This document shows, piece after piece, positions 1-15,299 of a stretch of DNA of 64,000 nucleotides (the stretch's first letter is position 1; every line of letters begins with the position of its first letter). The DNA is taken from contig JALEGL010000014.1 of the NCBI GenBank assembly GCA_022763185.1, positions 62,001 to 126,000 on the forward strand, given 5' to 3'. The DNA is from a bacterium. GTDB taxonomy: Bacteria > Bdellovibrionota_G > JALEGL01. Position numbers and translations under genes: made by a program. Below the pieces are notes generated by a model, which worked only from the letters and a program-made list of their open reading frames with translations, was not told where the DNA came from and did not search any database.

Positions 1-494
1 CAAGAATTATATATGTTGCCAGTTTTTCTAAGTCTTGTTCAAATCCTGTAGCCTTTGTTGCAGCAAATAAGAATATAATTCAATGCTTAGATAATTCTGC
101 GCCATTTTTAATTTTTAGTGGGCCGCCATCTAATTTCCATTGTGTTATATCAAATAGACATTTAGATTCGTTTGACAGTAGTGTTTATAAAGATAAGAGA
201 GAAAAAATTAAAAGGTATTCTTCTAAGCTTCATGGTAAATGTAAAAACCTTGGATTAGAAACGTTTAGTGAAAAAGAATCGCCTATTATTTCCATCAAGA
301 TTTCGTCAAGAAACTTTAATGCGCTTTCTGATAAGGTCTTTGATATTGGTTTGATAGGGAAAGGGGTCATTTATCCAGCTGTAAGAAAAGGAGATGAAGC
401 TATGCGATTTACAATCACATCAAAACATAAACAAAGTGAGATTGAAATGTTAGGAAAAGTCTTTGAAGTAATAAAGGAATATAACAATGAATAA
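1..494 (+). CDS. Alpha-oxoamine-synthase-type PLP enzyme, C-terminal part (partial)
   Basis: An open frame enters from the left edge, with its first full codon at base 3, and stops with TAA at 492-494, leaving about 163 residues. Near the start is SFSKS, which fits the PLP-lysine motif of the AONS/glycine C-acetyltransferase family. It is followed by the family pattern of a buried FVA strand, a PFLIFSGPP segment, SPIISIKI and a final small domain ending in RFTITSKHK (family: RLRxTxTAxHT). Such enzymes condense an amino acid with an acyl thioester. The substrate cannot be read here. The stop overlaps the next gene's start (487), so the two are translationally coupled. It could also be a plain class I/II aminotransferase, since the N-terminal half is missing. 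Confidence 0.75.
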   Translation, partial: RIIYVASFSKSCSNPVAFVAANKNIIQCLDNSAPFLIFSGPPSNFHCVISNRHLDSFDSSVYKDKREKIKRYSSKLHGKCKNLGLETFSEKESPIISIKISSRNFNALSDKVFDIGLIGKGVIYPAVRKGDEAMRFTITSKHKQSEIEMLGKVFEVIKEYNNE

Positions 495-1686
495 TACTGA
501 GAAGTTCTTAGAAAGATTCGAGAAAAATAGCAATATACCTAGACATATTATTTCTAAGTATCCAAATATATTTCCATATAAAAAAAAACAAGATTTTGAA
601 TTTTTTAGTGAGTTGGTTAAGGATCTAGCTAACTTTTTTAACAATAGAGAGGAAATCTGTACTAAAGAAGAGGTTAAAGTTTTAGAGAAAATTAGCTACT
701 CCAATACAATTGAAATTCCAAATAAAAATACTATTTTTGCTAGGCCTGATGGTTTTTGGAATGAATATTTTCAAATGATAGAAATCAATATAGGAAACTC
801 TATTGGTGGTCTATTGGCAATAGATAAATTGGGACAATATTATAGTTCAATTACAGAGAATATAGAGTTTAATTCAATTGTTGAGGGCTTATTTCATATG
901 TGGAAGCCTTATAATGATCAAAAGAATCCAATTATTTTGCATAGAAATATTGGTGAGCATGAGCGTTATGAAAGACAAAATATTGAGCTTGTATCTTTAC
1001 TCAAGGAACGTGGGCTAAATATAGAGTTTTCAGATACCAAAAAGCTATATCAACAACTGAAAAATAATGAACTAAAACCAAGTCTTTTGGTTACTAGGCA
1101 AGATATATTAGACAATAAAGAAAGTCATGATCTTATTTTTAAATTTGAAGACCTAGCGAAACAAAAAGGTTTTAGGTTGTTTTGTGATAATAGAAATATT
1201 GATATTTTAAACAGTAAAGTTTTACTAGCGTTGTTTAGAGAATACATGCAGTCAAAATATATAGTACCATCTTTTTGGTTAGGTAATGTAGCAACAAAAA
1301 GTTTAGATAAGTTTCGTTTGAGAATAGAGAGTATTATAAGTGACAAAAATAAATTTATGATTAAAAAAGATTGCAGTTATCAAGGAAAAGATGTCTTTTT
1401 TGGTGATGAGTGTTCTGATGCTGAATGGGAAAAGTTAATTAATAATGCAATTAATGATGGGGTATGGATAGCTCAATTTGTGCAGTCGGGTCAGAGTTTT
1501 ATCTTTTACGACACAAAAGGTAGCTCTGAAAAGGAATATCCAGCAGTAGTTAGTCCGTATTATTTTTCTGGAAAAGCAAATGCTGTAGCACTAAGGTATC
1601 GTTTGTCTGAACAGAGTAAAGTTTGTTCAATGCCAGGGAGTAGTAAGACAGTTTTTGGAATGTTGGGGTTTAAAAATGCTAATTAA
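487..1686 (+). CDS. Circularly permuted ATP-grasp-like protein
   Basis: The 399-residue protein has no signal peptide. Residues 86-101 (RPDGFW, then EIN) resemble the acidic ligand segment found N-terminally in circularly permuted ATP-grasp proteins such as the glutathionylspermidine-synthase group. Residues 291-306 (MIKKDCSYQGKDVFFG) look like the ATP-binding lysine plus glycine loop, and an IAQFVQ hinge follows near residue 330. I infer an ATP-dependent carboxylate-amine ligase acting on a small molecule or peptide. It overlaps the preceding PLP enzyme by 8 nt and its stop lies 8 nt past the MFS start, so the genes form an operon. Family assignment is by motif only, and the substrate is unknown. 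Confidence 0.5.
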   Translation: MNNTEKFLERFEKNSNIPRHIISKYPNIFPYKKKQDFEFFSELVKDLANFFNNREEICTKEEVKVLEKISYSNTIEIPNKNTIFARPDGFWNEYFQMIEINIGNSIGGLLAIDKLGQYYSSITENIEFNSIVEGLFHMWKPYNDQKNPIILHRNIGEHERYERQNIELVSLLKERGLNIEFSDTKKLYQQLKNNELKPSLLVTRQDILDNKESHDLIFKFEDLAKQKGFRLFCDNRNIDILNSKVLLALFREYMQSKYIVPSFWLGNVATKSLDKFRLRIESIISDKNKFMIKKDCSYQGKDVFFGDECSDAEWEKLINNAINDGVWIAQFVQSGQSFIFYDTKGSSEKEYPAVVSPYYFSGKANAVALRYRLSEQSKVCSMPGSSKTVFGMLGFKNAN

Positions 1687-2821
1687 TGTTTTACCACATT
1701 TTTTCTATTCATTTATTTTATGGATGTTGTTTTCAAAAATACCTGAGATGCAGTCCGATCCATTTGATCAGCCTACGTATTTACTAATCATTGGTATGAT
1801 AAAGTATACACCCGTATTCCTTTTTGCTATTTTAGGTGGGCATATTGTTAAAGAGTATGCAAAAAAAGGATTTATAGTTGGTTTGATCGCTGTTCAAATG
1901 GTCATAATCTTTTTTCTAAAAACATACACGCAGGATTCCTATGCAAGCCTAATATTGCTTGGAAGTTTTGTGATTTTTTCGTTGATCTATGAGCCTTTGA
2001 TTGACTACTTAACAGCCTATTACTCTGAAAAAAAAGGAGAGTACATCTATATGAACAGTATTGTGTCTCTCAGTAGAACATCTGCAAGACTGTTGGCTCC
2101 AATGATGTTTGTATATGTTATTGCAAAAAATAATGGAGATATTTTTTCGACTACACAAATTATGTATTTGATATTGGCAGTGTCCATTATGTTTATTGAT
2201 TTTCCAAAGTTAGAGAGTGGTGAAAAAAAACAAAAAAAAAGCTTAATAGTGTGTATGAAAAATATTATCAGCAATAAAACAGCTTTGGGCATTTTGTTAA
2301 TTTACTGTGTGTTTTATTTAGGAATAAACTATTTAGAATATATAGTTGTGATCTCCCAAAAATTTGCATCAGTTCAGTTGGGTGATTTATTTATGACTAT
2401 GGGGGCAGGCTTTGTTTGTGCAAATGCTAGTTTATTAATCTTAAAAGATAAGATTAAATCAATCCATATGATGACATTTAGCCTAGGTTTAAGCGGTACG
2501 ATGTTGATAATGTTACCTTGGATAGAGGTTAAGTATTTAGTTTTCATGGCTTTGTTTTTGATTGGTTGCGGTAATGGTTTGGCCGTGCCCATATCAATGG
2601 GCTATGCTCAAAAATTACTTAAAAAAGATTTGATACCCTATTTTAGTGGCTTGTTGGATACAGCTATTAATGTTTGCGCTATTGTTTCAGTTGGAATTGG
2701 GTTTGTTTTAATGAAAACGCTTGGTGCAAAAGGAGTCTTTCTGTTTGATGGTTTGTTTTTGCTGATGTCAATGCTGATATGGGTATCGTTAAATAAAAAT
2801 ACACTTGGAGAAATAAAATGA
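1676..2821 (+). CDS. MFS transporter
   Basis: This hydrophobic protein of about 381 residues has 10-12 predicted membrane segments and no soluble domain. It resembles major facilitator superfamily exporters, with a conserved-looking central loop after TM6 (PKLESGEKKQKK) and a second half beginning at about residue 190. I chose ATG 1676 over the TTG at 1655 because it gives a normal MFS N-terminus (MLINVLPHFF) and follows a GGGG-containing stretch. It overlaps the end of the ATP-grasp-like gene and its own stop overlaps the next ATG (ATGA at 2818). The position suggests export of the cluster's product or import of its signal or substrate. Confidence 0.75.
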   Translation: MLINVLPHFFYSFILWMLFSKIPEMQSDPFDQPTYLLIIGMIKYTPVFLFAILGGHIVKEYAKKGFIVGLIAVQMVIIFFLKTYTQDSYASLILLGSFVIFSLIYEPLIDYLTAYYSEKKGEYIYMNSIVSLSRTSARLLAPMMFVYVIAKNNGDIFSTTQIMYLILAVSIMFIDFPKLESGEKKQKKSLIVCMKNIISNKTALGILLIYCVFYLGINYLEYIVVISQKFASVQLGDLFMTMGAGFVCANASLLILKDKIKSIHMMTFSLGLSGTMLIMLPWIEVKYLVFMALFLIGCGNGLAVPISMGYAQKLLKKDLIPYFSGLLDTAINVCAIVSVGIGFVLMKTLGAKGVFLFDGLFLLMSMLIWVSLNKNTLGEIK

Positions 2822-3561
2822 ATTTAGCAAATAAAAGTGAAGACTCTTTTTTAAGGCATTTTTGTGAGATTAAACCCTCCGAGTGCTCTTCAATTTATTA
2901 TTGGAAAGATGGAGTTCAGTGGCCAAAATTTACTTTTATTAGAGTTCATGTAGCTGAAAAATATGATGAAAAAGACTTTGAAAGTGACTCTGTATTTTTT
3001 ATAGACAAATTGAAATTAAGTAAGCGAGAAATTTATATTAAAGTAAGCGATGATTTAGAAAAATCGAGCTATATTAAAGAAAACTTTAAATTAAGTGGTT
3101 CTAGGTTGGCTTATTTTTCATTTAAAAAGAATAATGGCGCATGTTCATTAGAGAAAGATGAAAAATTTGTAGAGTGCAAAAATGAAAGAGATTTAGAAAA
3201 TTTTTGGCTTATAAACTCTAGTGGACGATCAAGAAAAGATCCCTTTTTAAGCCCTTTATGGCCGATTATAAAAAATTCTTTTTTAAAAGGAACCAGATAC
3301 TTTGTTCTAGAAAAAAATAATATTCCAGTTTCGGGTGCTGCATTAGATATCTTTGAAGGTGGTTATAATTTATGGGGATTGGCCACTGTAGAGAGTGCAA
3401 AAAGAAAAGGATTTATGAAAAAATGTATTTATAATATTATGCAAATATGCAAGGGTGATTTTTATGCTCAAACTAATTATGATTCAATAACACATCAATA
3501 TTTTTTAAAACACCATGAAGCAGAGTTTTTAGGTTCAGAAACTTGGTATGTGCATAAATAA
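2818..3561 (+). CDS. GNAT-like N-acetyltransferase
   Basis: This 247-residue soluble protein's C-terminal half looks like a GNAT fold. A strand (VLEKNNIPVSGAALDI) is followed by YNLWGLATVES and then AKRKGFMKKC at residues 194-203, in the position of the acetyl-CoA pyrophosphate loop (R/QxxGxG/A). Glycine is only partly kept in that loop. The N-terminal half is less recognisable, so a tandem or degenerate GNAT is possible. The ATGA overlap with the MFS gene and the 14-nt overlap with the following gene mark one operon. In small-molecule clusters a GNAT often modifies the product or gives self-protection, but that role is inference here. Confidence 0.5.
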   Translation: MNLANKSEDSFLRHFCEIKPSECSSIYYWKDGVQWPKFTFIRVHVAEKYDEKDFESDSVFFIDKLKLSKREIYIKVSDDLEKSSYIKENFKLSGSRLAYFSFKKNNGACSLEKDEKFVECKNERDLENFWLINSSGRSRKDPFLSPLWPIIKNSFLKGTRYFVLEKNNIPVSGAALDIFEGGYNLWGLATVESAKRKGFMKKCIYNIMQICKGDFYAQTNYDSITHQYFLKHHEAEFLGSETWYVHK

Positions 3562-5074
3562 AAAAAATATATATACCTCCCTTTTTGTTGGAATTTTTTT
3601 AGTCGTTTTATTTAAGGTTTTTCAAGAAAATAATAAGACAGTTGTAAAAGTTATTTTTGAAACAGAGTTGGAAAAAATTTTACCTTTAAAGACTCAAGCA
3701 AAAGATTGGAGCGAAGTTTCTAATCAAATTTTTGAGAGACCTTTCTTTTTTTCGAGAGAAGGTAAGTTAAAACCACAGCTTGCAGATGATTGGAATTATG
3801 AAAATAACTATAAAGATTTGATTATTAGTTTGAAAAAGAATGTGTTTTTTCATAATGGCAAAAAATTGAAAGCTGAAGATTTTGTTTATAGTATAAAAAA
3901 ACTAAAAGAAATTAATTCTTATCTAGAGTCTTCAATTATGTTTGATCTAATCAAAGATGTTAAAGAAGAATCAGATTATATAGTAAGAATACTTTTAACA
4001 GAAGCGAATCACGATTTTTTATATTTTTTAGCAAGCTCTAATATTAAAATTTTTCCAAAGGATATTTTTGATAATTATAAAAAAGTAGAGGGTGCATGGG
4101 TTGGTACAGGGGCATTTAAACTTAAAGAATTTACAAATAAATCTATTATTTTAGAAAAATTTACTGATTATCGAGATAGTGTAAAAATAGATGAGCTGCA
4201 TTTTGTAGTATCTAATGATCCAAAACAAGATTTGATAAATGGAAAGCTTGATCTTATTCATATAGATAGAAAAGACATAGACTTTTTTTCTAAGCAGAAA
4301 AACTATACAACTTATAGCTTTCCAATCTTGGGAAGTTTTTATGTAGGGTTTAATTTGAAAAATAAAAAATTTTCATCCGATTTTAGGCAAGCTCTTTTTT
4401 ATATGTTGAATAGAAAAGAAATAGTGCAAAATGTTAAAATTGAAGATGAATTGATACCAAAAAATATTATTCCTTTTGGTATGATAGGTTATAAATCTTC
4501 AGGGAGTACTCATAATGAAAAAAAAGCTTTTGAGTATATTAATAAAATCCCCAAGCACTTATTACCTAAAAAAGAGGATTTGACGATATCTTTGCCAAGA
4601 AATGCCCATCCTATGGCGGTTTATGCAGCAAAAAAAATATCGAAAGCATGTGTTGACTTGGGGTTGCCTGAGCTTGAAATTAAATACGTTCAAGAAAACT
4701 ATGGACAAGGAAAGATCGGAGATTTTTATACTCATTTGAACAAGAATAAAGATTTTAATATGTATATTCGGGCAGTTATTATGTCATACCCATCTACACT
4801 TTTTTTGTTGAAACAAGTGTTTCTTCCAGAATCTAGGATGAATTTTGGTGGTTACAGTAATAACGAAGTTTCTAAAAACTTAAGGAAAACACCTGAAAGT
4901 TTTTATAGTGAAGATTTGAGAGTATATTATGAAAAATCATTGAAGTACATTGAGGAAGATATTCCAGTTATACCTTTAGCAAATTTAAAAAATAATATTG
5001 TATATAGTAATAAGTACCCATTAAAGGTACATACTATGAGCCCTGCATTTTTTTTATATAAAGATAGTTTATGA
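3548..5074 (+). CDS. Family-5 extracellular solute-binding protein (OppA-like), orphan
   Basis: The 508 residues begin with a short basic N-terminus and one hydrophobic segment (about residues 9-24), so the protein is probably secreted or membrane-anchored. The body matches the SBP_bac_5 pattern: LADDWNYENNYKDLIISLKK (residues about 78-97), the FHNGKKLKAEDFVYSIKK motif, GTGAFKLKEF, and a late DIPVIPLA segment. These proteins bind peptides or other small solutes for ABC importers, but no ABC permease or ATPase gene is nearby. Instead the stop overlaps the start of the histidine kinase (ATGA, 5071-5074). I infer a ligand receptor working with that kinase, or a binding protein for a transporter encoded elsewhere. 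Confidence 0.8.
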   Translation: MCINKKNIYTSLFVGIFLVVLFKVFQENNKTVVKVIFETELEKILPLKTQAKDWSEVSNQIFERPFFFSREGKLKPQLADDWNYENNYKDLIISLKKNVFFHNGKKLKAEDFVYSIKKLKEINSYLESSIMFDLIKDVKEESDYIVRILLTEANHDFLYFLASSNIKIFPKDIFDNYKKVEGAWVGTGAFKLKEFTNKSIILEKFTDYRDSVKIDELHFVVSNDPKQDLINGKLDLIHIDRKDIDFFSKQKNYTTYSFPILGSFYVGFNLKNKKFSSDFRQALFYMLNRKEIVQNVKIEDELIPKNIIPFGMIGYKSSGSTHNEKKAFEYINKIPKHLLPKKEDLTISLPRNAHPMAVYAAKKISKACVDLGLPELEIKYVQENYGQGKIGDFYTHLNKNKDFNMYIRAVIMSYPSTLFLLKQVFLPESRMNFGGYSNNEVSKNLRKTPESFYSEDLRVYYEKSLKYIEEDIPVIPLANLKNNIVYSNKYPLKVHTMSPAFFLYKDSL

Positions 5075-7164
5075 AGCAGTATAGTATCCTCAAAAAAGTC
5101 AATACTACTTACGTTGTTATTCTTGTGTTAGCTTTTTTATTTCCGTTAGGTTTTAATGCATATTTTAATATTTCAAAGTATAATTTAGAAAAGATTAGGT
5201 TAATCAAAATTTCTAATGATTTTTCGTCAGATAAAATAAGTGAAGCATATCTTTTAAATAATTTAGCTTTGGTTAATCAAACTTTAAGAAATTTATGTGT
5301 AGAACTTGATTTAGCTACTTGTGAGTTTTTAAATTCAAAAAAGGACCAAATTTACTTTTTTAAATTAAAAAATATATCTAAAAATAGTTTATCAACATAT
5401 AAATACCCTCTTATATATAACGGTAAAACTTTGGGTTGGTTAAACTTTTCATATCAACCATTGTCTTTCTGGAGAGGTTTGTTCAGTAAAAACATTCATC
5501 TAGTCCCATGGTTGGTTTTATTTATGTTTTTGAGCACCTCTTTTTTAAGGAACTTGATTAAAAGTTCTTTAGAGAGGTTTAATGATATTTCTAAAGCAAT
5601 GGAAGACCCAAATCTTTCATTAATCATTGAGAATATTAAAGCTATGAGTTTTTCTATGAAAGAGGTTGAGAGTCTGAAAATTAAAATTCAAAATAATTTA
5701 GAAAAAGTTAAAGATTATGAGGAAATTTCTAAAGAAACAGAAAAGCTGAAAGTTGAAACAAGTATAGCTCGACAAGTAGCCCACGACATACGCTCACCGT
5801 TAACGGCGTTGAATGTGGTATCTAAGGATTTGTCAGGTTTACAAGAGGGGTCTCGGGTATTGTTGCGGTCATCTATTCAGAGGATACAAGACATTGCCAA
5901 TAATCTAGTAAGTAAGAGTGATGTGAATGCTCAAGATGAAGGTGAAAGTTCAGAACAAGAGATATTAGAGTCAGTTTTACTATTACCTATTATAGAAGAG
6001 ATAGTGTCAGAGAAAAGGTATCAGCAAAGAAGCAAAGCAGATGTGGATATTGTATTAGAGAGTGATAAAGCCTATGGTTTGTTTGCTAAAGTGGATGAGC
6101 ATGTTTTAAAAAGAGTCATATCTAATCTGATTAATAACAGTGTGGAAGCATTTAAAGGTACTGGTGAGGTTGTAGTTCAAGTTGCTAAATGTTTGAATAG
6201 TGACGAGATTGTAATCAGCGTTAAAGACAATGGTAAAGGAATTCCAAAAGATGTTTTGCCAAAGTTGGGAGAAAGAGGTGCTTCTTTTGGTAAAGAAGGC
6301 CATAAAGAGTCAGGCTCAGGCTTGGGCTTGTACCATGCTAAAAGTAATGTAGAGAAATGGGGCGGGAGGTTTGTTATAGAGTCTGAACAAGGAAAAGGTA
6401 CAGAGATTCAACTTTATTTGCCTAAAACAGAAGCTCCGGATTGGTTTGTGCCCAGAATTAACCTTCAAGGCATAAAAAGCATCGTTATCTTGGATGATGA
6501 CGAGTCTATCCATCAAGTGTGGGATAAGCGCTTAGATGTTTACATAAAAGAACATAATATAGATTTGAAACACGCCCGCTGTCCAGAGGCATTTGAAAAG
6601 CTGGTGCAAGATAGAGAAGGTTTGTTGTGTTTGTGTGATTATGAGCTTTTGGGCTATGAAGAAACGGGTTTGGATCTTATTGAGAGGAATAAATTAGAGA
6701 ATATAGCTATACTGATCACCAGCAGGTATGCTGAAGAAACTGTTCAGGGGCGCTGTAAAAAACTTGGGATAAAACTTATCCCAAAAACATCTGCGGATTT
6801 AGTGCCGTTAACCATTGAGAAAAGCCAGAACAAGGTGCAGTACGATGCAGTATTGATTGATGATGATGAGATGATTCGGAATGTATGGCAGATGGCAGCA
6901 GATGATGACAATAAGCGTATCTTAACCTTTGCGGATCCAGCATTGTTTGATGAACAGGTGAAAAAGATAGATCTTCAGACGCCAATTTATATAGATCAGA
7001 ACTTAAAGAATAAGCAGCTGGGTACTGAAGTGGCAAAGAGCATCGCTAAACGAGGATTTAAAAATTTGTATTTGGCCACTGGTGAAGAGGCGTATAGAGT
7101 TAAGCAAACGCATGATACCTCCATCTTTACTAAGATTGTCGATAAAAACCCGCCTTGGGTTTAG
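5071..7164 (+). CDS. Hybrid sensor histidine kinase with two receiver domains
   Basis: Of 697 residues, TM1 (about 12-30) and TM2 (about 144-160) enclose a short extracytoplasmic loop. A coiled stretch follows, then the H-box VAHDIRSPL with His238, the N-box NLINNSVEA (352-360), DNGKGIP and SGSGLGLYHAK. Two response-regulator receivers follow: one at about 468-585 (DDDES, likely phospho-Asp523, Lys572) and one at about 591-697 (IDDDE, likely Asp642, a late Lys). It is coupled to the solute-binding protein by an ATGA overlap. Base composition becomes less AT-rich from about nt 5770 (residue 234), suggesting that the sensor part and kinase core have different histories. No separate output regulator is adjacent. 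Confidence 0.9.
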   Translation: MKQYSILKKVNTTYVVILVLAFLFPLGFNAYFNISKYNLEKIRLIKISNDFSSDKISEAYLLNNLALVNQTLRNLCVELDLATCEFLNSKKDQIYFFKLKNISKNSLSTYKYPLIYNGKTLGWLNFSYQPLSFWRGLFSKNIHLVPWLVLFMFLSTSFLRNLIKSSLERFNDISKAMEDPNLSLIIENIKAMSFSMKEVESLKIKIQNNLEKVKDYEEISKETEKLKVETSIARQVAHDIRSPLTALNVVSKDLSGLQEGSRVLLRSSIQRIQDIANNLVSKSDVNAQDEGESSEQEILESVLLLPIIEEIVSEKRYQQRSKADVDIVLESDKAYGLFAKVDEHVLKRVISNLINNSVEAFKGTGEVVVQVAKCLNSDEIVISVKDNGKGIPKDVLPKLGERGASFGKEGHKESGSGLGLYHAKSNVEKWGGRFVIESEQGKGTEIQLYLPKTEAPDWFVPRINLQGIKSIVILDDDESIHQVWDKRLDVYIKEHNIDLKHARCPEAFEKLVQDREGLLCLCDYELLGYEETGLDLIERNKLENIAILITSRYAEETVQGRCKKLGIKLIPKTSADLVPLTIEKSQNKVQYDAVLIDDDEMIRNVWQMAADDDNKRILTFADPALFDEQVKKIDLQTPIYIDQNLKNKQLGTEVAKSIAKRGFKNLYLATGEEAYRVKQTHDTSIFTKIVDKNPPWV

Positions 7165-7195
7165 AAAGCTTTATTTTTAAAGAGAGGCATTTGCA

Positions 7196-7309
7196 ATGAC
7201 TTTAGATATTGATCATTTTAATATCACATTGGGCGATGAAGTATTTGAAGAAATAAAAAAGTTTAAGGTGCGGGTATCAAAAAATACAACATTAAATGTA
7301 CTTTCCTAA
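7196..7309 (+). CDS. Possible 37-residue small ORF
   Basis: ATG 7196 is preceded by AGAGAGG with 7-8 nt spacing, and the frame runs 37 codons to TAA at 7307-7309. The peptide starts MTLDIDHFNITLGDE and ends TTLNVLS. It sits 31 nt behind the kinase and overlaps the 3' end of the convergent HAD gene by 18 nt. It could be a genuine small protein, the truncated start of a longer gene cut by the arrival of the minus-strand cluster, or a peptide connected with the neighbouring ATP-grasp genes. No core or leader motif that I know is visible. The ribosome-binding site is the main support. Confidence 0.3.
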   Translation: MTLDIDHFNITLGDEVFEEIKKFKVRVSKNTTLNVLS

Positions 7310-8077
7310 GCCTGTATTAACCAACAATGTCTGCATGCCCAGTGTTTCTGCTGGGATGATATCACATCGCAAAGAGTCTCCAATATAAAGAATAGAGTTG
7401 TAGTCTAGAGTATTAAAGTATTTTAGAGCAGCATAACAAAACCCTTCAAGGCTTGGTTTTCCAATTAATTGGTAATGTAGTTTTTTGTTTAAATCTTTAA
7501 AAGAAGAAATGAAACATTGTAATATCGAGCCTGCACATAAAGAGTATTGATTTTGTTGAGGAGAATATAAATAATCAGGGTTAACAATATAGAATGGAAT
7601 ATGAGAGTTAATGATTAGATAACTCATTAACTTAGAATAGTTTTCTAAAGGAATAGTAGAATCCTCACCAAGTATAATAGCATCATATTTATCAAAAGTA
7701 TTCCAATAAATTTTATAGTTAGATATACGCTTATCTGATAAAATAGATGCTTCAGGTTTTCCAAAATATAAAATGTTTTTGGCATCAATTTTTTTTAGCT
7801 TAATTTTTAATAAGTCTGCTGAAGTTGTAACTCTATTGTTTGCACATTGAATTCCAAGATTTTTGAGATTAAATGCTTTTTCTTTTCCTAAAGTTGAGGA
7901 GTCATTTGATAGAAAACCATACTCGATATTTTTTGTATTTAGATATTCAAATACATCAAGTATATTTTTTGATATTTTTCTATTTATTAAAACTGTTCCA
8001 TCAATATCAAAGATTATTCTTTTTGGGTTATACGACTTTAAAAGATCAACGTTTAATTTTTTTGACTTATGTTCCAT
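7292..8077 (-). CDS. HAD-superfamily phosphatase, NagD-like (subfamily IIA)
   Basis: The 261-residue soluble protein has the HAD nucleophile motif FDIDGT at 23-28, the NagD-type cap following LSNDSS (motif II), and a C-terminal GDSLRCDI motif with the acidic pair that binds magnesium. Such enzymes remove phosphate from small metabolites. The length is normal, though the end after the last motif is short. It is the last gene of the minus-strand set, 22 nt after the racemase-like gene, so it probably dephosphorylates a pathway intermediate. That specific role is inferred from position. Confidence 0.8.
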   Translation of the reverse strand: MEHKSKKLNVDLLKSYNPKRIIFDIDGTVLINRKISKNILDVFEYLNTKNIEYGFLSNDSSTLGKEKAFNLKNLGIQCANNRVTTSADLLKIKLKKIDAKNILYFGKPEASILSDKRISNYKIYWNTFDKYDAIILGEDSTIPLENYSKLMSYLIINSHIPFYIVNPDYLYSPQQNQYSLCAGSILQCFISSFKDLNKKLHYQLIGKPSLEGFCYAALKYFNTLDYNSILYIGDSLRCDIIPAETLGMQTLLVNTGLGKYI

Positions 8078-8099
8078 ATCTCAAAAAATTGTTGTTTTT

Positions 8100-9158
8100 T
8101 TACTGAGTGCTACAATTTATTCTACTGATTAATTCAAATTCACTTGTATTAAGTTCAGTAGCGAGTTTTGATATGATATTGCCTTCAATACAAGGTTCAT
8201 AAAAGCATATATTTTTTAAGTTTGATTTGTACTTGGTAATCTTATCAAACAATATGTATCCAAAAGACATGAAGTTAGGCCCAATTAGTTTAGCTTTGCC
8301 AATGTTAGATTGGACTTCTAATATAAAATCACTGGGAAGTTTTAAAAAATTATCAAAACCTAGGTTTGATATTCCTATATATCCATCACTGGTTAACTTT
8401 GTTCTAGGGGAATATCCAATTTTATCATGTTTAGAGACTTTTTTTAACTGATATATGTCAAATTCAATTGAAATAGAACAAACAAGACCTAAGTTTTTAA
8501 TCCTTATAGAATCTTTCCAAAGTCCAAATATAAGTTGACCAACTCTGGGAATTCCAACTCTGTTTTGATAATTTTTTTCAAATGTTGAAGAAGTTTCTAA
8601 AGAAACTGATGCCTTTGGGAAATATCGACTTTTAATTCCTAAAAGTTCTTTCTGAGTTGCAATGTTTTCTGATGCATATGGGTTAAGCCTATTGATATAC
8701 TGAGACCATATACTTACAATATTTATTCTTGATTCATAAAGTCTTGCTAAATAACTTTCTGAATTGAGTAAATCTAAACCCTCTCTTTTAAGACCACTAT
8801 CAAAAACTAAAATTGCCGATTGAGAATAATCCATATCTAATAAGATGTTTAACTCTTCAACTGACTTTATAGTTGGAAGTATATTATATTGAGAAAGTAA
8901 TTTAACATCTAAGTCCCAGCCATAATATACGCAAGCGCCGCGATAGCCATTATTCCTCAAAATAATTAGGTCCTCAAGCTTATTGCAGGCAATATAAGCT
9001 AGCATGCTATTTATGTCTTCAGCAATTAGGGCGATATTATGTATGTTAAGGTTATATGCATTATCTTTTAAGAAAAGTCCGATTTTATTGTTTTTGTTGT
9101 CTTTAAATAAAGTGCTTATATTATGAAGAATCGCACTACTATTAATTTGAATTGACAT
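8100..9158 (-). CDS. Alanine-racemase-fold PLP protein lacking the catalytic Tyr
   Basis: The 352 residues follow the two-domain alanine racemase plan. The expected PLP lysine is K31 in LKDNAYNLN (family: VVKANAYGHG), GLKREGL at 123-129 fits GMxRLG, and PRVGQLIFGLW at 204-214 fits the RPGxxLYG segment with the pyridine-contacting Arg. In the C-terminal domain the family motif GYADG is GFDN here (F268), so the tyrosine that abstracts the L-face proton appears replaced. The family CMDQ segment reads FMSF (297-300). I infer a changed or lost racemase activity, such as a binding protein, decarboxylase or one-face PLP enzyme. It overlaps the upstream ATP-grasp gene by 17 nt. Confidence 0.7.
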   Translation of the reverse strand: MSIQINSSAILHNISTLFKDNKNNKIGLFLKDNAYNLNIHNIALIAEDINSMLAYIACNKLEDLIILRNNGYRGACVYYGWDLDVKLLSQYNILPTIKSVEELNILLDMDYSQSAILVFDSGLKREGLDLLNSESYLARLYESRINIVSIWSQYINRLNPYASENIATQKELLGIKSRYFPKASVSLETSSTFEKNYQNRVGIPRVGQLIFGLWKDSIRIKNLGLVCSISIEFDIYQLKKVSKHDKIGYSPRTKLTSDGYIGISNLGFDNFLKLPSDFILEVQSNIGKAKLIGPNFMSFGYILFDKITKYKSNLKNICFYEPCIEGNIISKLATELNTSEFELISRINCSTQ

Positions 9159-10353
9159 ATTCTATATTAATACTTTCCAATAAATCAAAGTACTGGTCTT
9201 TTATGGCTCTAGTTGAGTCACCTAAAATGATAAAACTACCTAATCTACAATCATTGTCAGTGAGTTGTTCAATAGCAATCGGAAGTTTAACAGTTCTCAT
9301 AAGTTCAAAGTTATCTTTGCAATATGTGATGCTTTCAATGTGGCCCAGATGTTTTGGAATAATCTGACCCATAGCTTTAATATTATTAGATAATTTTTTA
9401 TGATTAATATTAATTGGATTAGATAAATAAGAATTAATCCAAAGATCTGCTACATCTATGTTTAATGTTTCATATATAAGTTCAACAATCCTGTCGCCAG
9501 GCAATCTTGGATTAATTTCTATGAGTTTAGCAATACCATTATCAATTTTAAACTCAATGTGTGCAACTGAACAATCTAGGTTAACAGAATTTAACCAGTT
9601 CAATATAATTGAACGATTTACTTCTTGGTTGGGAATAGTAACATTGCAAATATCCAAAAGTTCAACGCAGTTTTCATTAATATGTAAGTCTTTTGAAGTG
9701 TATTTTTTAATATAAGTAAGTATTTCCCACTGGTCTTCATTCCAATAACACTCTGCAGAGTACTCAATGCCCTCTATAAATTCTTCAATTTGACAGCCAC
9801 GTTTAAACTGATACCCATAGTTGTTTTTTTTCTGATCAAAATATAAAGGAGAGACTCTATTTAATTCGTTTTGATTGCTTACAACATAAACATCACAGCT
9901 TCCACTGCCATTGATAGGTTTAATAATTGCCGGATATGTTTTCCAATGGTTTACATCTTCACTTTTATCAATGCTTTTATAATCAACAGATGATTTTGAA
10001 TTATTGGTTAATTTTCGTGTTTTATCCTTGTATTTACAATTACATATAGCATTGTATTTAGGGCCATAGCCTTTAAGGTTTGCGTTGATTTGAGAACATA
10101 CTTCTAATTGATAATCTCCGGGAGCAATTAAACAATCAATATTATTATTTTTACAAAGCTTTGTTACTTCATCAACTGAATATGAATTTCCTACAATTAA
10201 AGTTTCAGTTAAAAGCGCTGGATTAAGTTCAAGATGGTGATACTTATTGATGTCCGTTGTTATAAACACTGCTTCAAAATTATTCTTTTGCAGTGCCTTA
10301 ATTAAGAACCAGCCATTACCTGAAGAATTTGTTTCTAATATACCAATTTTCAT
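9142..10353 (-). CDS. ATP-grasp carboxylate-amine ligase
   Basis: This 403-residue soluble ligase has an N-terminal pre-ATP-grasp half with a short Rossmann-like start (KIGILETNSSGNG). The ATP-binding lysine loop is PAIIKPINGSGSCDV (K145), an EEFIEGIEYSAEC hinge is present, and the metal-binding IEINPRLPGD motif lies at about 272-281. This is the L-amino-acid ligase/BacD and carbamoyl-phosphate-synthase-like arrangement, which activates a carboxylate as acyl phosphate and joins it to an amine. ATG 10353 is supported by TAGGAGGATGAT just upstream. It is the second ATP-grasp enzyme in this operon, suggesting two ligation steps. Substrates are unknown. Confidence 0.8.
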   Translation of the reverse strand: MKIGILETNSSGNGWFLIKALQKNNFEAVFITTDINKYHHLELNPALLTETLIVGNSYSVDEVTKLCKNNNIDCLIAPGDYQLEVCSQINANLKGYGPKYNAICNCKYKDKTRKLTNNSKSSVDYKSIDKSEDVNHWKTYPAIIKPINGSGSCDVYVVSNQNELNRVSPLYFDQKKNNYGYQFKRGCQIEEFIEGIEYSAECYWNEDQWEILTYIKKYTSKDLHINENCVELLDICNVTIPNQEVNRSIILNWLNSVNLDCSVAHIEFKIDNGIAKLIEINPRLPGDRIVELIYETLNIDVADLWINSYLSNPININHKKLSNNIKAMGQIIPKHLGHIESITYCKDNFELMRTVKLPIAIEQLTDNDCRLGSFIILGDSTRAIKDQYFDLLESINIEYVNSN

Positions 10354-10362
10354 ATCATCCTC

Positions 10363-11454
10363 CTAAAAACTATCTAAAATACGATTCATTTCATTCCCCA
10401 CAATATCAATATCATTGATTTTACATGATTCTAATGGCATACCCAGTATACTTCTTACACTATCCTGGCATTGTTTTGTAAAATGAACGGTGCCTTCTGC
10501 GTCAATTTTTTCTATTCCATCGTACTTTTGACCTTCAATATTTACTCTTATCATTTCATTTAATTCATTATGATTATCGTAGTGAACAGAGTTGGTTGAT
10601 GGATTTATAGGATATCCTCCTTCAAGACCATTTATTCCTGGAGCATGAATATTGCCTAAATTAAAACCAAGCTTAGTTAAAATAACTGAAGCTGCAGAAT
10701 GTGCGGTCATTGTTTGTCCCTCTAGACCGGTAATTCTCTGAAATTTATGGTAGGTATTTTTTAAAATAAAATTTTTGTTTGACTCTATATCTAAAGATCT
10801 ACCTTCTATGTTAGCTTTAATATAAATTGGAGCTCCATTCGTAGTGCCTGATCTAGTTATTGGAAACCCAGCGGCATGATGTCCTGCAACTTTTAAATTG
10901 ATTTTTTCTGGATTAACATTAAAAAAATCTGCAATTGAATATTTTATTGCAGGAACTGAGTTAGCAATATTCCCAATTCCAATACTTGGTGACATGTCAT
11001 AACGCTTTAAAACTGGATTAGTCACGTCAGGATAACAAGCATTGATCACATCTGTTTTTATTTTTATATCATTCAGTATTTTCATTAACTTTATCGTATT
11101 AGGTGCAAGAAAAGGATACCAAGCACCGGGTAAAACTGATTTTAGTTCTGCATACCTTTTAGAATTACTATTTTTCCATAAAGGTCGAAGTGGAGCAGTT
11201 TGCAATATATAATCTGGTGATATTTCACTAAGATACGTAGAGATTTGATCAGAATTATTTAAATCACCTTCTTTAAATTTAATAATACTATATTTGTTTA
11301 TTTGTGCATTTGTCAGTTTAAGATGATTGATCCTTTTTTTTACTGACTCGTAATTTCTAGATATGATCCATAATTCTATATTAGTTCTTGCGGTTACAAT
11401 CCGTAAGGTTTCATAGGCTAAGTTTCCAAATCCGAATACTAATAGTCTTTTCAT
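10363..11454 (-). CDS. Rossmann-fold NAD(P)-dependent dehydrogenase-like protein
   Basis: The 363 residues start with a dinucleotide-binding strand and glycine loop (VFGFGNLAYETL, residues 6-17), followed by a saccharopine- or opine-dehydrogenase-like first domain. Further on are DVINACYPDVTNPVL and AGHHAAGFP, whose spacing loosely recalls the NPV and histidine motifs of lactate/malate or opine dehydrogenases. A reductase or dehydrogenase acting on an amino-acid-derived intermediate is the likely role. It lies 9 nt upstream of the second ATP-grasp gene and 1 nt after the aminotransferase gene. I cannot assign a named family. Confidence 0.5.
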   Translation of the reverse strand: MKRLLVFGFGNLAYETLRIVTARTNIELWIISRNYESVKKRINHLKLTNAQINKYSIIKFKEGDLNNSDQISTYLSEISPDYILQTAPLRPLWKNSNSKRYAELKSVLPGAWYPFLAPNTIKLMKILNDIKIKTDVINACYPDVTNPVLKRYDMSPSIGIGNIANSVPAIKYSIADFFNVNPEKINLKVAGHHAAGFPITRSGTTNGAPIYIKANIEGRSLDIESNKNFILKNTYHKFQRITGLEGQTMTAHSAASVILTKLGFNLGNIHAPGINGLEGGYPINPSTNSVHYDNHNELNEMIRVNIEGQKYDGIEKIDAEGTVHFTKQCQDSVRSILGMPLESCKINDIDIVGNEMNRILDSF

Positions 11455-11455
11455 T

Positions 11456-12835
11456 TTAATGATCTCCTAAAAATTTATCTATGATTGGAAATACTTGTGT
11501 ATTAAATATTTTTATTATCTTTTCCGTGCCCATTTTGAATACTTCTCCACCCTTTTCTTTATAAGATTTAATTTTAGAACTATTTATTTTAGAATCTCGC
11601 TCAAGTTTAGTTTGATAATCATAGTGATCAGATGCACCATAGCAACCATAGGCTAGTCTATGGTAACCAGGTAATCCATGTGAAGAACCAGGAGCAAATG
11701 ATACTTTTGCATATTTTTGTAAGTAAAGAGTAATATCTACATCAGTGTTTAATTTCTTTTTTCCATCTTTCTTAAATTTTAAGGCGTTGAATGAAATTAA
11801 AAGAGAATGTCCAGAGTATGGTGAGTGAGCAATCTCAATGGGGTCATAGTCAATAATAAATTTATTTTTAGCCTGTACATTATAAGAAATGATTTCTTCT
11901 TCAATTTTTCTTACGCGATCTTTTAAGCATTGATTGTTTTGAAGATAGTACCAGTTTGGTGATCTTAATGCCGTTATAGCAGCATGTTGATTGATCATAG
12001 TTACAGTGCCATATGTTAGGCGGTTATAATTTTTGAGATCATTAACGATTTTTTTGCTTCCACACATCCAGCCAAGCCTTAAATTAGCCAAGTTAAATTT
12101 TTTTGAAAGCCCTGAGCACACAAGAATAGGGTTTTTTAAGTGTTTTGATGAGGCAATAAGTTTGCTTTCTTCTTTAAACTCTGTTCCTCCAAAAACATTA
12201 TCTTCAATAATTGTAATGTCGTATTTACCAAGCTCTTTAGCAAGGGAATCGATTTCATTTTTTGTATACACCGATCCAGTATATCCTGGATTGAATAAGA
12301 CCAGTGTTGATACTTTTGTCATGCTGTATTTTTGGCAGTAGTGATTAATTTCTTTAGGAGTAAGTTTAAAATCATTATCTTTTCTTGTTTTAATTATATG
12401 GAGAGGAAGGTTGTTTTCGTGACACCAAGCAATAAGAGGATGGTAAATAGGAGCCGAAGTTAAAACGACTGAATTTTTTGGACATATTTTATTTAAATAG
12501 CTAGTTATGATTCTTGTTACACTGCCTTCTATACTGATATTTTTACTTAGATGCTCAGGAACTCCTTTTTCATTATATGACTTAATAATAATTGACTCCA
12601 ACTCTTCATGGACTTTTAGATGGTGATAATCTTCAAGTGAAAATCGTTTTGCATCATACACTGCTTCACAAATCTGTTGTGTGACTTCAAAGTAAGGCCT
12701 TCTACAACCATCTCCATGTGAAAATGAACTGATGTTTGGTGAAAACATTGACTCAGAGTAAAGTTCGCCATCTATATTTTTTCCTTCAAGCGCAAGCCTT
12801 GCGTTTGATAATATTTTCATATTAGATTTATACAT
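11456..12835 (-). CDS. Class I/II PLP-dependent aminotransferase
   Basis: This 459-residue fold type I enzyme has LVLFNPGYTGSVY at 178-190 (family NPxNPTG), TIIEDNVFGG at 208-217 with Asp212 contacting the PLP ring nitrogen, and the PLP lysine K245 in SGLSKKF followed by LRLGW. It transfers an amino group between an amino acid and a keto acid. ATG 12835 is preceded by AAGG at a suitable distance, and the start overlaps the MFS gene end by 8 nt. In the cluster it could make the non-standard amino acid that is then ligated, as BacF does for bacilysin. That comparison is an analogy only. Confidence 0.85.
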   Translation of the reverse strand: MYKSNMKILSNARLALEGKNIDGELYSESMFSPNISSFSHGDGCRRPYFEVTQQICEAVYDAKRFSLEDYHHLKVHEELESIIIKSYNEKGVPEHLSKNISIEGSVTRIITSYLNKICPKNSVVLTSAPIYHPLIAWCHENNLPLHIIKTRKDNDFKLTPKEINHYCQKYSMTKVSTLVLFNPGYTGSVYTKNEIDSLAKELGKYDITIIEDNVFGGTEFKEESKLIASSKHLKNPILVCSGLSKKFNLANLRLGWMCGSKKIVNDLKNYNRLTYGTVTMINQHAAITALRSPNWYYLQNNQCLKDRVRKIEEEIISYNVQAKNKFIIDYDPIEIAHSPYSGHSLLISFNALKFKKDGKKKLNTDVDITLYLQKYAKVSFAPGSSHGLPGYHRLAYGCYGASDHYDYQTKLERDSKINSSKIKSYKEKGGEVFKMGTEKIIKIFNTQVFPIIDKFLGDH

Positions 12836-13982
12836 TTATAATCCTTTTTGTTGATGATTGGTAAAATGATAGTGATCCAAAAATAGAAATAAATAGAAAA
12901 ATGCTTAAGCTTACTATTAGGTTTTTGTTTACAATAATTGCACCAAGGTACTGTCCAGCTCCTAATCCAAAACCACTGCAAAATAAGTTGTATTCAGCCA
13001 TAGATGATAATTGGTCTAAAGATGAACTCAAAACTTCATTCTGAATGTGTACTGAACAAATAATTTCTCCTAGAGAAAATATTACTGCTGAAAATATAAT
13101 AATATATGCATTTAAATTTGGATTAACTCTAAGAGAAGCCAATCCTATAAATGTTAATAGAAAACCTAAAAAAACCATATGATGTGATTTTTTGGCTTTA
13201 AATAGTTTAATAACAAAATAGCTCAAAGAAACTATAATTGAAGAATTTAAAAATAGATAAAATGAAGTCCAATATTTACCATTAGAAATAGATTTTAAAA
13301 GTAAAAGAGGTATAAAACTATAAAGCATACCTGCTAAAACAAAGTAAGCGAGTCCAGACAATAGTAACCCTATATTTTCAAAAGGTCTTTTTCTAGCTTT
13401 ATTGATTGAGTTTTTTTTAATTTGCTTGCCTGAAACAGATATGCTGATGCACATGGCAATAAAAAATAAAGCACTACTCATTAATATTGTTTTTGAATAA
13501 TTATAGCGGGCAATTAAAAATGAAAATCCCAAAGGAGCTAAAGTACCACTAAGTCCCAGTACAATATGGAGTTGCGATAGCATTGCTTTTAGAGAAGTGT
13601 TTTTGCCTGACACTTTAGACGCAACTACTCGTGAGCTGATCACGTAAAATGAAGAAAATAATCTAAATATTAGAATCAAGCATGAAAAAATAATAATACT
13701 AATTGCATATTTTTCCGAGATTCCAAGCATTGCTGTGGAAAGTGATAAAATAAAAATTGATCCAGTAAAAACGCTAAAAACATTAAATGATAATGTGGAA
13801 GTGATAATTAAATAGCTTGCAATTGCACCAATATAGGTAGAAGCCATTAGAATAAACCCAATGTTTTTGGATTCTATTTTAAATTCAGTAGACCCAATGG
13901 ATATTAAATATGGAAATATCATCTGAGTTGCTAAAGCTACAAGAAAACAACAAAAAAGAAATAAGATAGCCTTATGATTCAT
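12828..13982 (-). CDS. MFS transporter
   Basis: This integral membrane protein of about 384 residues has about 12 hydrophobic segments in two halves separated by a basic loop (GKQIKKNSINKARKRP). I use ATG 13982 (MNHKAILFLF) and not the TTG at 14039, because it gives a normal start at the first membrane segment. It lies between an ATP-grasp gene and the aminotransferase gene in one direction, the place expected for an efflux pump of the product. The 120-bp gap before it holds inverted repeats at 14062-14098 that could control it. The substrate is unknown. Confidence 0.75.
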   Translation of the reverse strand: MNHKAILFLFCCFLVALATQMIFPYLISIGSTEFKIESKNIGFILMASTYIGAIASYLIITSTLSFNVFSVFTGSIFILSLSTAMLGISEKYAISIIIFSCLILIFRLFSSFYVISSRVVASKVSGKNTSLKAMLSQLHIVLGLSGTLAPLGFSFLIARYNYSKTILMSSALFFIAMCISISVSGKQIKKNSINKARKRPFENIGLLLSGLAYFVLAGMLYSFIPLLLLKSISNGKYWTSFYLFLNSSIIVSLSYFVIKLFKAKKSHHMVFLGFLLTFIGLASLRVNPNLNAYIIIFSAVIFSLGEIICSVHIQNEVLSSSLDQLSSMAEYNLFCSGFGLGAGQYLGAIIVNKNLIVSLSIFLFISIFGSLSFYQSSTKRIINV

Positions 13983-14061
13983 TACAAAGACTAAACATTT
14001 CAATTTATATGCCAAAAAAAAGCACTGATTCTCTAACAATAAGTAGAGTTATATAAATTTA

Positions 14062-14098
14062 GTCCAAAAATTGGACATCACGGTGTCATATTTTGGAC
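14062..14098. promoter_or_regulatory. Pair of inverted-repeat half-sites
   Basis: GTCCAAAAATTGGAC (14062-14076) is a near-perfect palindrome. It is followed after 8 nt by GTCATATTTTGGAC (14085-14098), a related imperfect copy. Both lie in the gap between the first ATP-grasp gene and the MFS gene. The arrangement suggests a repressor or activator operator. No T-run follows, so a terminator is less likely. Confidence 0.4.
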
Positions 14099-14102
14099 AG
14101 TA

Positions 14103-15299
14103 TTAATCTTGATATTCAAAAGTTATTTTTGAGATCAGTTCTTTACATTTATTCATGGCTGACTGAGCAGTATTTCCGGTGCAAATTACATAACCAACCC
14201 TATCATGAGATGATCTTACAATTGGTGTTGTATCTCCTGGTTTAAGATTAATATTGATTTCTACAACATTGGGTTCAAATTTATATTTTGTTAATCCTGA
14301 AATTGATTTTAATATTTTATTAGGTGGTATATTGAAATAACGTATTGCAGCTCCCCGCAAACTCTTAATTGACTCTGAGGGTATCTCCATAAGTTTTAAA
14401 GGCCATTTTATGGCGTAGTCATATAAATCATGTCCTGTCGATAGCCTTACAAGATTTGCAATATTATCTCCGCCATTTCGATTATGGGTTTCAATTATGT
14501 ATATAGTTTTATCTTTAATTATAATTTCGGTATGAGCTAAACCATCTTTGAGTTCCATAATATCTAAAAATTTTGAAATATACTCTTGCAAATATTTATT
14601 GCTTACTGAGAGTTTAGTTGGCAATTGATGACCTATTTCAATAAACTCCCCATCATATTCATTTTTTGCGAGGGCTTTTTTTGTAACTGAAAATATCCTA
14701 TGATTACCATTAAAACTAAATGTTTCTATTGAGTATTCATTGCCGTCAATATACTGTTCAACAATTAAATCTGATTCAAATATTTTTTTATTCAGTTGAT
14801 GTATATCTTCCAAACAGTCTATTTTGTAGATATCTTTACTACCAGAACCTTCAGTTGGTTTTAAAATAAAAGGATAATTCTTTCCATGAATAAATCTAAT
14901 TAAATCATTGAAAGAGTGTATTATACAATAATCTACATTATTAAAGCCATGTTCAGTAAGTTTTTTGCGCATTAAATGTTTATTTTTAATGCACTCAACA
15001 GACTTTATCGATGTACTGACAATATCAAGTTTTTCGTTTAATACTGCGGTGGGATAAAGACCTTTTTCAGTAATAGATAAAACATGCTCTATTTTTTGGT
15101 TTTCGTTTATTTTTTTAAGCTTTTTTAAAGTATTTGGCGAAGAATAATCTGAAACATATATTGTTTTAGGGTCAATGATCTTTAATTTTGGGTATTTTGT
15201 TTTATTATTTAAGATCAATATATAGTCAATATCAAGTAATTTTGCTCTGTCACACAACACTTCATTTGCTCCGAGGAGTACTATTAATTTTTTTCTCAT
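14103..15299 (-). CDS. ATP-grasp ligase, first gene of the minus-strand set
   Basis: This 398-residue ATP-grasp protein has the ATP-binding lysine and glycine loop in PFILKPTEGSGSKD (K147), a VEQYIDGNEYS hinge, and the metal motif IIETHNRNGGD near residues 270-280. A C-terminal domain contains NLKPGDTTP, as in BacD-type L-amino-acid ligases. It probably forms an amide bond using acyl-phosphate chemistry. ATG 15299 is preceded by AAAGGAAG. It is the first gene of the leftward set, so the promoter should lie in 15,300-15,420. It differs clearly in sequence from the ATP-grasp at 9142-10353, so the two probably catalyse different steps. Confidence 0.8.
   Translation of the reverse strand: MRKKLIVLLGANEVLCDRAKLLDIDYILILNNKTKYPKLKIIDPKTIYVSDYSSPNTLKKLKKINENQKIEHVLSITEKGLYPTAVLNEKLDIVSTSIKSVECIKNKHLMRKKLTEHGFNNVDYCIIHSFNDLIRFIHGKNYPFILKPTEGSGSKDIYKIDCLEDIHQLNKKIFESDLIVEQYIDGNEYSIETFSFNGNHRIFSVTKKALAKNEYDGEFIEIGHQLPTKLSVSNKYLQEYISKFLDIMELKDGLAHTEIIIKDKTIYIIETHNRNGGDNIANLVRLSTGHDLYDYAIKWPLKLMEIPSESIKSLRGAAIRYFNIPPNKILKSISGLTKYKFEPNVVEININLKPGDTTPIVRSSHDRVGYVICTGNTAQSAMNKCKELISKITFEYQD

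Follow-up and report, generated by a model that had tools for sequence, protein, structure and literature searches.

The closest described logic to that of the gene cluster analysed here is found in the biosynthesis of the phosphonoalamide tripeptides, which involves one aminotransferase and two ATP-grasps, one of the latter forming dipeptides and the second linking them to the unusual residue (PMC11867202). The cluster consists of seven intact open reading frames (ORFs), all on the minus strand and without interruption, at 7292-15299 of a 64,000-nucleotide stretch of contig JALEGL010000014.1 (hereafter the window) from a Bdellovibrionota_G bacterium, whose genome (labelled G000) is 97% complete and 2.25 Mb in size. 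In order of transcription they encode an ATP-grasp ligase (ligase 1), a major facilitator superfamily (MFS) protein, an aminotransferase-like enzyme, a dehydrogenase of an uncharacterised family referred to as ROSS, a second ATP-grasp ligase (ligase 2), a racemase-like enzyme and a haloacid dehalogenase subfamily IIA (HAD-IIA) phosphatase. The cluster probably represents a real and undescribed small-peptide natural-product pathway, since five of the seven genes lie together in an unrelated bacterium. From the sequences we consider it fairly likely that they form an operon for an exported di- or tripeptide, made by ligases on a non-proteinogenic amino acid and independently of nonribosomal peptide synthetases (NRPS).

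Comparison with phosphonoalamide and bacilysin loci

The phosphonoalamide locus (pnaABCD) and the cluster share an aminotransferase of the aspartate aminotransferase (AAT) superfamily, two distinct ATP-grasps, a transporter and independence from NRPS (PMC11867202). In contrast, PepM, indispensable to phosphonoalamide synthesis, is missing here, and the cluster adds a dehydrogenase of predicted lactate dehydrogenase (LDH) fold, the racemase-like enzyme and the HAD phosphatase; the cluster, although closer in logic to this system than to bacilysin, is not a member of it. The common architecture of an aminotransferase and two ligases could also be read as a phosphonopeptide route of the phosphonoalamide, valinophos or rhizocticin type, in which a phosphoenolpyruvate (PEP) mutase would be encoded elsewhere, a phosphonate 2-oxo acid would be the substrate of the aminotransferase and amino acids would be joined on by the ATP-grasps (PMC11867202), and the best plasmid match of ligase 1 (34%) lies within a Priestia megaterium cluster with a PEP mutase and two ATP-grasps. 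However, the sole PF13714 match above cut-off in the 97% complete source genome, at 32 bits, reads as PanB, and because this genome is without a PEP mutase the product of the cluster is not a phosphonate. The Priestia locus, moreover, holds no counterpart of the aminotransferase or the dehydrogenase. The phosphonopeptide route is thus largely refuted, and we find it barely credible.

The initial annotation had likened the cluster to bacilysin-type loci. This likeness held for the generic logic only, in that bacABCDEFG likewise combines an aminotransferase, a dehydrogenase, an ATP-grasp ligase and an MFS exporter, BacD being a distant relative of the ligases. The cluster has two ligases against one in bacilysin, as well as the extra racemase-like and HAD genes, and ligase 1 reached just 24.1 bits against the BacD equivalog NF053745 (cut-off 850), with ligase 2 under the threshold. 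Neither a BacA prephenate decarboxylase nor a BacB isomerase was found among the seven cluster genes, to which this search was confined.

Recurrence of a five-gene core

The core of dehydrogenase, aminotransferase, both ATP-grasps and MFS gene was found in one run, in changed order, on an 11.4-kb contig (L098) of the 2.3-Mb genome of an alphaproteobacterium (G1133), which belongs to the class of Roseibium. Identity between window and L098 proteins was 30% for ROSS, 27% for the aminotransferase, 26% for ligase 2, 25% for ligase 1 (best match at 3280-4503) and 22% for the MFS protein. Each ligase scored best against its own counterpart (126 versus 45 and 110 versus 56 bits). In the ligase tree, ligase 2 (W_GRASP2) was sister to A98_GRASP2 of L098 with support of 100/99, and ligase 1 joined its L098 counterpart and the Priestia phosphonate-locus ligase with support of 85/87, a grouping that its long branches require to be read with caution. 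The presence of five of the seven genes together in another class argues that their grouping in the window is not due to chance.

Overlapping subsets were found elsewhere. A locus of genome G871 (L099, 70% G+C) encodes an ATP-grasp of the L-amino acid ligase (LAL) type, a glutathione-synthetase-like ATP-grasp, an MFS protein, a haem-oxygenase-like oxidase and an aminotransferase of the window clade, with no ROSS. Roseibium and Labrenzia (L010 and L011) carry ROSS, aminotransferase, HAD-IIA and EamA exporter genes together, and Mycobacterium barrassiae (L035) a methionyl-tRNA synthetase (MetRS)-like protein, ROSS and a HAD hydrolase, with an MFS-like protein in divergent orientation. Some 25 rhizobial loci (L002, L003 and L009-L043, in the last range at about 7000-11100) hold a quartet of HAD-IIA, a drug/metabolite transporter (DMT) family exporter, alanine racemase and a divergent ROSS. 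What the quartet has in common with the cluster is the ROSS family, the HAD-IIA phosphatase, an exporter and a gene of the racemase family, but it lacks ATP-grasps and an aminotransferase of the window clade, has DMT in place of MFS, and often includes a gene of the C45 peptidase/acyltransferase family. The window, L098 and Roseibium all have ROSS paired with the aminotransferase, as the constant chemical unit. An exporter recurs across loci, as do enzymes that activate amino acids, whether two ATP-grasps or the MetRS-like protein, and ROSS is accompanied by a HAD phosphatase in Roseibium, in rhizobia and in Mycobacterium.

No curated family names the seven-gene set, and no description of it was found in the literature searched, where coverage of subscription journals is thin. 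A candidate amino-acid or short-peptide pathway, as had been put forward initially, is well supported by this result together with the recurrence. The accompanying expectation, that unrelated genomes would hold the same set without a known product, was borne out for five of the seven genes and for the overlapping subsets, not for the full seven. The five-gene core provides a defined query for mining genomes for small peptides made without NRPS, few of whose pathways have been worked out, and the source phylum has few sequenced members in the collection used.

The rhizobial association of ROSS with alanine racemase, an EamA/DMT exporter and a HAD phosphatase, and the flavin adenine dinucleotide (FAD)/2Fe-2S oxidases and opine-type amino-acid ABC importers that adjoin some of these loci, would suit another product, namely an opine-like compound or a secreted small molecule such as a metal chelator. 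The dehydrogenase, the racemase-like enzyme and the exporter would make it and the ATP-grasps would decorate it. A racemase, a dehydrogenase and an EamA exporter recall the staphylopine and pseudopaline loci. However, no nicotianamine-synthase-like gene or TonB receptor adjoins the window cluster, ROSS has a predicted LDH fold and no opine dehydrogenase Pfam match, and in three genomes the locus centres on two ligases. We hold such a product to be unlikely. In two Mesorhizobium loci (L024:16015-16043 and L043:16073-16101) a PEP-mutase/phosphonopyruvate-hydrolase motif was seen next to an aminotransferase, about 5 kb from ROSS, and may perhaps point to phosphonoalanine breakdown.

ROSS and the aminotransferase-like enzyme

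ROSS matched no Pfam or NCBIfam family above cut-off. An AlphaFold model from an alignment of 22 had a pLDDT of 90, and the top Foldseek matches were lactate/malate dehydrogenases (LDH/MDH) and close kin only (probability 1.00, E 3e-9, TM ~0.5). The model places ROSS in the LDH/MDH fold without sequence-level family membership. In common with that superfamily, it has a GxG nucleotide motif and an invariant His at the position of LDH His195 or one residue off. Members of the family are found at loci for exported metabolites in rhizobia, Roseibium, Pseudomonas, Mycobacterium and Streptomyces-like actinomycetes. ROSS is rare, occurring in three of the 385 genomes that sampled the domain, and neither ROSS nor the aminotransferase was found in the four phylum relatives searched, which fits a laterally acquired accessory pathway. 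A single-protein scan of genome contigs and a search of viral contigs gave no match to ROSS; an alignment of eight distant relatives had no sufficiently conserved stretch, and four closer ones were used instead. The deep branches of the ROSS tree lack resolution, and no history was inferred from it.

The aminotransferases of the window, L098, L099 and Roseibium formed their own clade (support 93/91). This clade is otherwise very rare: it occurred in one of 385 genomes across the domain, the window's own, and in none of 293 genomes of the class of Pseudomonas, a search run without a positive control. Alphaproteobacterial relatives at E < 1e-30 numbered three in 385 genomes, and all three lay in clusters of the kinds described above. 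With the aminotransferase as query, plasmids returned generic aminotransferases only.

Some ROSS relatives lie in catabolic-looking loci with MttB, DhaK and FAD oxidoreductases, as might be expected if an unusual amino acid or peptide were taken up by the MFS protein and catabolised or detoxified by the cluster, with the ATP-grasps modifying it or conferring resistance. Two ATP-consuming ligases, and an operon without a peptidase, ring-opening or deaminating enzyme, speak against such a function, which we regard as very improbable.

Other members of the family were noted in further settings. In Pseudomonas (L026, L027, L033, L036 and L040) ROSS adjoins transaldolase-like and sulfotransferase genes, in several cases with a short-chain dehydrogenase/reductase (SDR), and in L026 a methyltransferase and an adenosine phosphosulfate (APS) kinase also lie near the ROSS relative. 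Vibrio phage Va2 (L008:7917-9068) encodes a homologue of 25% identity. In large actinomycete genomes DUF6002 (PF19465) adjoins distant ROSS members (L076:6398-7768, L077:7578-8960 and L078:7014-8360) and is a possible partner of them; a comparison showed no relation of DUF6002 to the aminotransferase, and no solved relative of it was found.

Ligases, accessory enzymes and the proposed pathway

Both ligases exceeded the curated ATP-grasp_4 cut-off of 27 bits, and ligase 1, in contrast to ligase 2, carries a LAL_C2 domain (cut-off 29.4 bits). The two were 23% identical when aligned, in agreement with their first description as dissimilar. A solved-structure relative of ligase 1 is the L-amino acid ligase 3vot (E 1.8e-19), and a profile of the window ligases and their L098 counterparts gave BL00235, BacD and further L-amino acid ligases as best solved relatives. 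By domain they are members of the ATP-grasp superfamily with putative L-amino acid ligase activity. The Priestia megaterium plasmid locus (L110, 6754-16760) is of phosphonate type, with PEP mutase, thiamine diphosphate (ThDP) decarboxylase genes, ornithine carbamoyltransferase and two ATP-grasps. A second cluster with an ATP-grasp pair in the source genome (L058, G000:C11:22000-34383, at 4846-11760 on the plus strand) encodes an acyl-CoA dehydrogenase, an FlK-type thioesterase, an MFS protein, the two ATP-grasps, a TauD dioxygenase and an SDR, and possibly makes another ligase-built natural product.

The racemase-like protein scored 61.9 bits against the alanine racemase equivalog TIGR00492, failing its cut-off of 168, and by this curated model is not an alanine racemase. 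It keeps the pyridoxal phosphate (PLP) Lys31 and the second catalytic base Tyr249, both invariant in the racemase alignment, which correspond to Lys39 and Tyr265 of Geobacillus alanine racemase; several other positions are changed, including Tyr284 to Phe. The HAD protein retains the four HAD motifs, DIDGT, SN, GKPS and GDSLRCD. The initial annotation did not recognise the cluster, with its additional tailoring genes, as a described set. The racemase-like and phosphatase genes fall outside the conserved five-gene core. The pairing of a racemase with ATP-grasps resembles the supply of D-Ala-D-Xaa, and D-Ala-D-Ala ligase profiles gave weak matches; the ligases and racemase-like enzyme might instead provide peptidoglycan, or some other polymer of the cell surface, with an unusual D-amino acid or dipeptide. 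However, the genome already has three full-length alanine racemases above the curated cut-off (G000:C14:307729, C3:156886 and C6:321371), its dcw region (L062) is apparently normal, with another ATP-grasp in the place of ddl, and the cluster, which includes an exporter of its own, is rare and was not found in the four phylum relatives searched. An envelope or primary-metabolic function of this kind seems improbable to us. One run of genes (L059, G000:C14:300000-316000, at 6067-11059 on the minus strand) encodes an alanine racemase, a GARS-like ATP-grasp, an amino-acid kinase and a member of the Na+/H+ antiporter family.

In the exported-peptide pathway that we favour, ROSS and the aminotransferase-like PLP enzyme would produce the non-proteinogenic amino acid, and the HAD phosphatase would probably dephosphorylate an intermediate, following the dehydrogenase-aminotransferase-phosphatase logic of SerA-SerC-SerB. 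The racemase-like enzyme would probably set or alter one residue's configuration, the two ligases would couple two or more residues via acyl-phosphates, and the MFS protein would carry the product out. We infer the phosphorylated intermediate, the racemisation, the order of reactions, the peptide product and its export; amino-acid building followed by ligation and export is the most economical reading. Small ligase-made peptides usually act as antimetabolites. More tentatively, the cluster might exemplify an undescribed class of NRPS-independent di- and tripeptide antimetabolites that has spread laterally between phyla, with the key residue made from a phosphorylated precursor by a new LDH-fold family and its partner PLP enzyme and with one residue changed in configuration, and the ROSS module in rhizobia, Roseibium, pseudomonads and actinomycetes might make further exported amino-acid derivatives.

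Several points weigh against this pathway. In ROSS, LDH Asp168 and Arg171 are not kept, the weak sequence alignment placing an invariant Asn165 and a conserved Pro168 there, and these replacements make a plain 2-oxo acid a doubtful substrate. The best NCBIfam model for the aminotransferase was the GntC cyclodehydratase NF041364 (92.3 bits, under the equivalog cut-off of 415), and since the best models include the cyclising PLP enzymes GntC and VioD, it may not be a transaminase. The HAD and racemase-like genes are not on L098, past whose ends they may lie, and were not seen in L099, so that their roles are assigned from the gene associations in Roseibium and in rhizobia; the rhizobial racemase is not specifically related to the window protein (16-21% identity). 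The outward direction of MFS transport is assumed.

Layout and flanks of the cluster

As first noted, the genes are tightly packed in one direction, the intergenic gaps being 63, -8, 1, 9, -17 and 22 bases in order of transcription. The functions originally assigned agree with the family matches (Table 1), save that the "Rossmann dehydrogenase" matches no Pfam or NCBIfam family and has a predicted LDH/MDH fold. Ribosome sites of the AGGAGA/AGGAGG type precede the dehydrogenase and ligase 2 genes, and the listed start of the MFS gene is TTG, with an ATG 19 codons further in.

Table 1. Genes of the cluster in order of transcription, with window coordinates
Feature	Position	Strand	Basis
ATP-grasp ligase 1, L-amino-acid-ligase type with C-terminal LAL_C2	14103..15299	-	PF13535 62.4 bits; PF18603 LAL_C2 55.7 bits
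MFS transporter, presumed exporter	12828..14039	-	MFS_1 25 bits, E 1.1e-5, under curated cut-off
Class-I (fold type I) PLP aminotransferase-like enzyme, N-terminal HGDG-RRP motif	11456..12835	-	PF00155 Aminotran_1_2 74.6 bits
NAD(P) dehydrogenase, LDH/MDH fold, uncharacterised family ROSS	10363..11454	-	predicted structure; ~30% identical relatives
ATP-grasp ligase 2, subfamily other than ligase 1	9142..10353	-	PF13535 63.8 bits
Alanine-racemase-like fold-type III PLP enzyme	8100..9158	-	PF01168 Ala_racemase_N 54.8 bits
HAD subfamily IIA phosphatase	7292..8077	-	TIGR01460 95.2 bits (cut-off 100.15); PF13344 Hydrolase_6 48.4 bits

The cluster has a G+C content of 29.8%, against 37.5% for 15300-64000, and the 8-kb stretch of lowest G+C in the window begins at ~7.5 kb, in line with the initial remark that the cluster lies in the most AT-rich part. 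The core genes reported next to it are fmdB-groES-groEL, which abut its right flank; a relative, G001, has the same order of these three with other upstream neighbours. On the left lies a convergent sensor kinase gene ending at 7164. It closes a plus-strand run (487-7164) of genes with short overlaps, for an unknown protein, an MFS protein, a second unknown protein, an SBP_bac_5 peptide-binding protein and the hybrid sensor kinase, which could serve peptide sensing or import.

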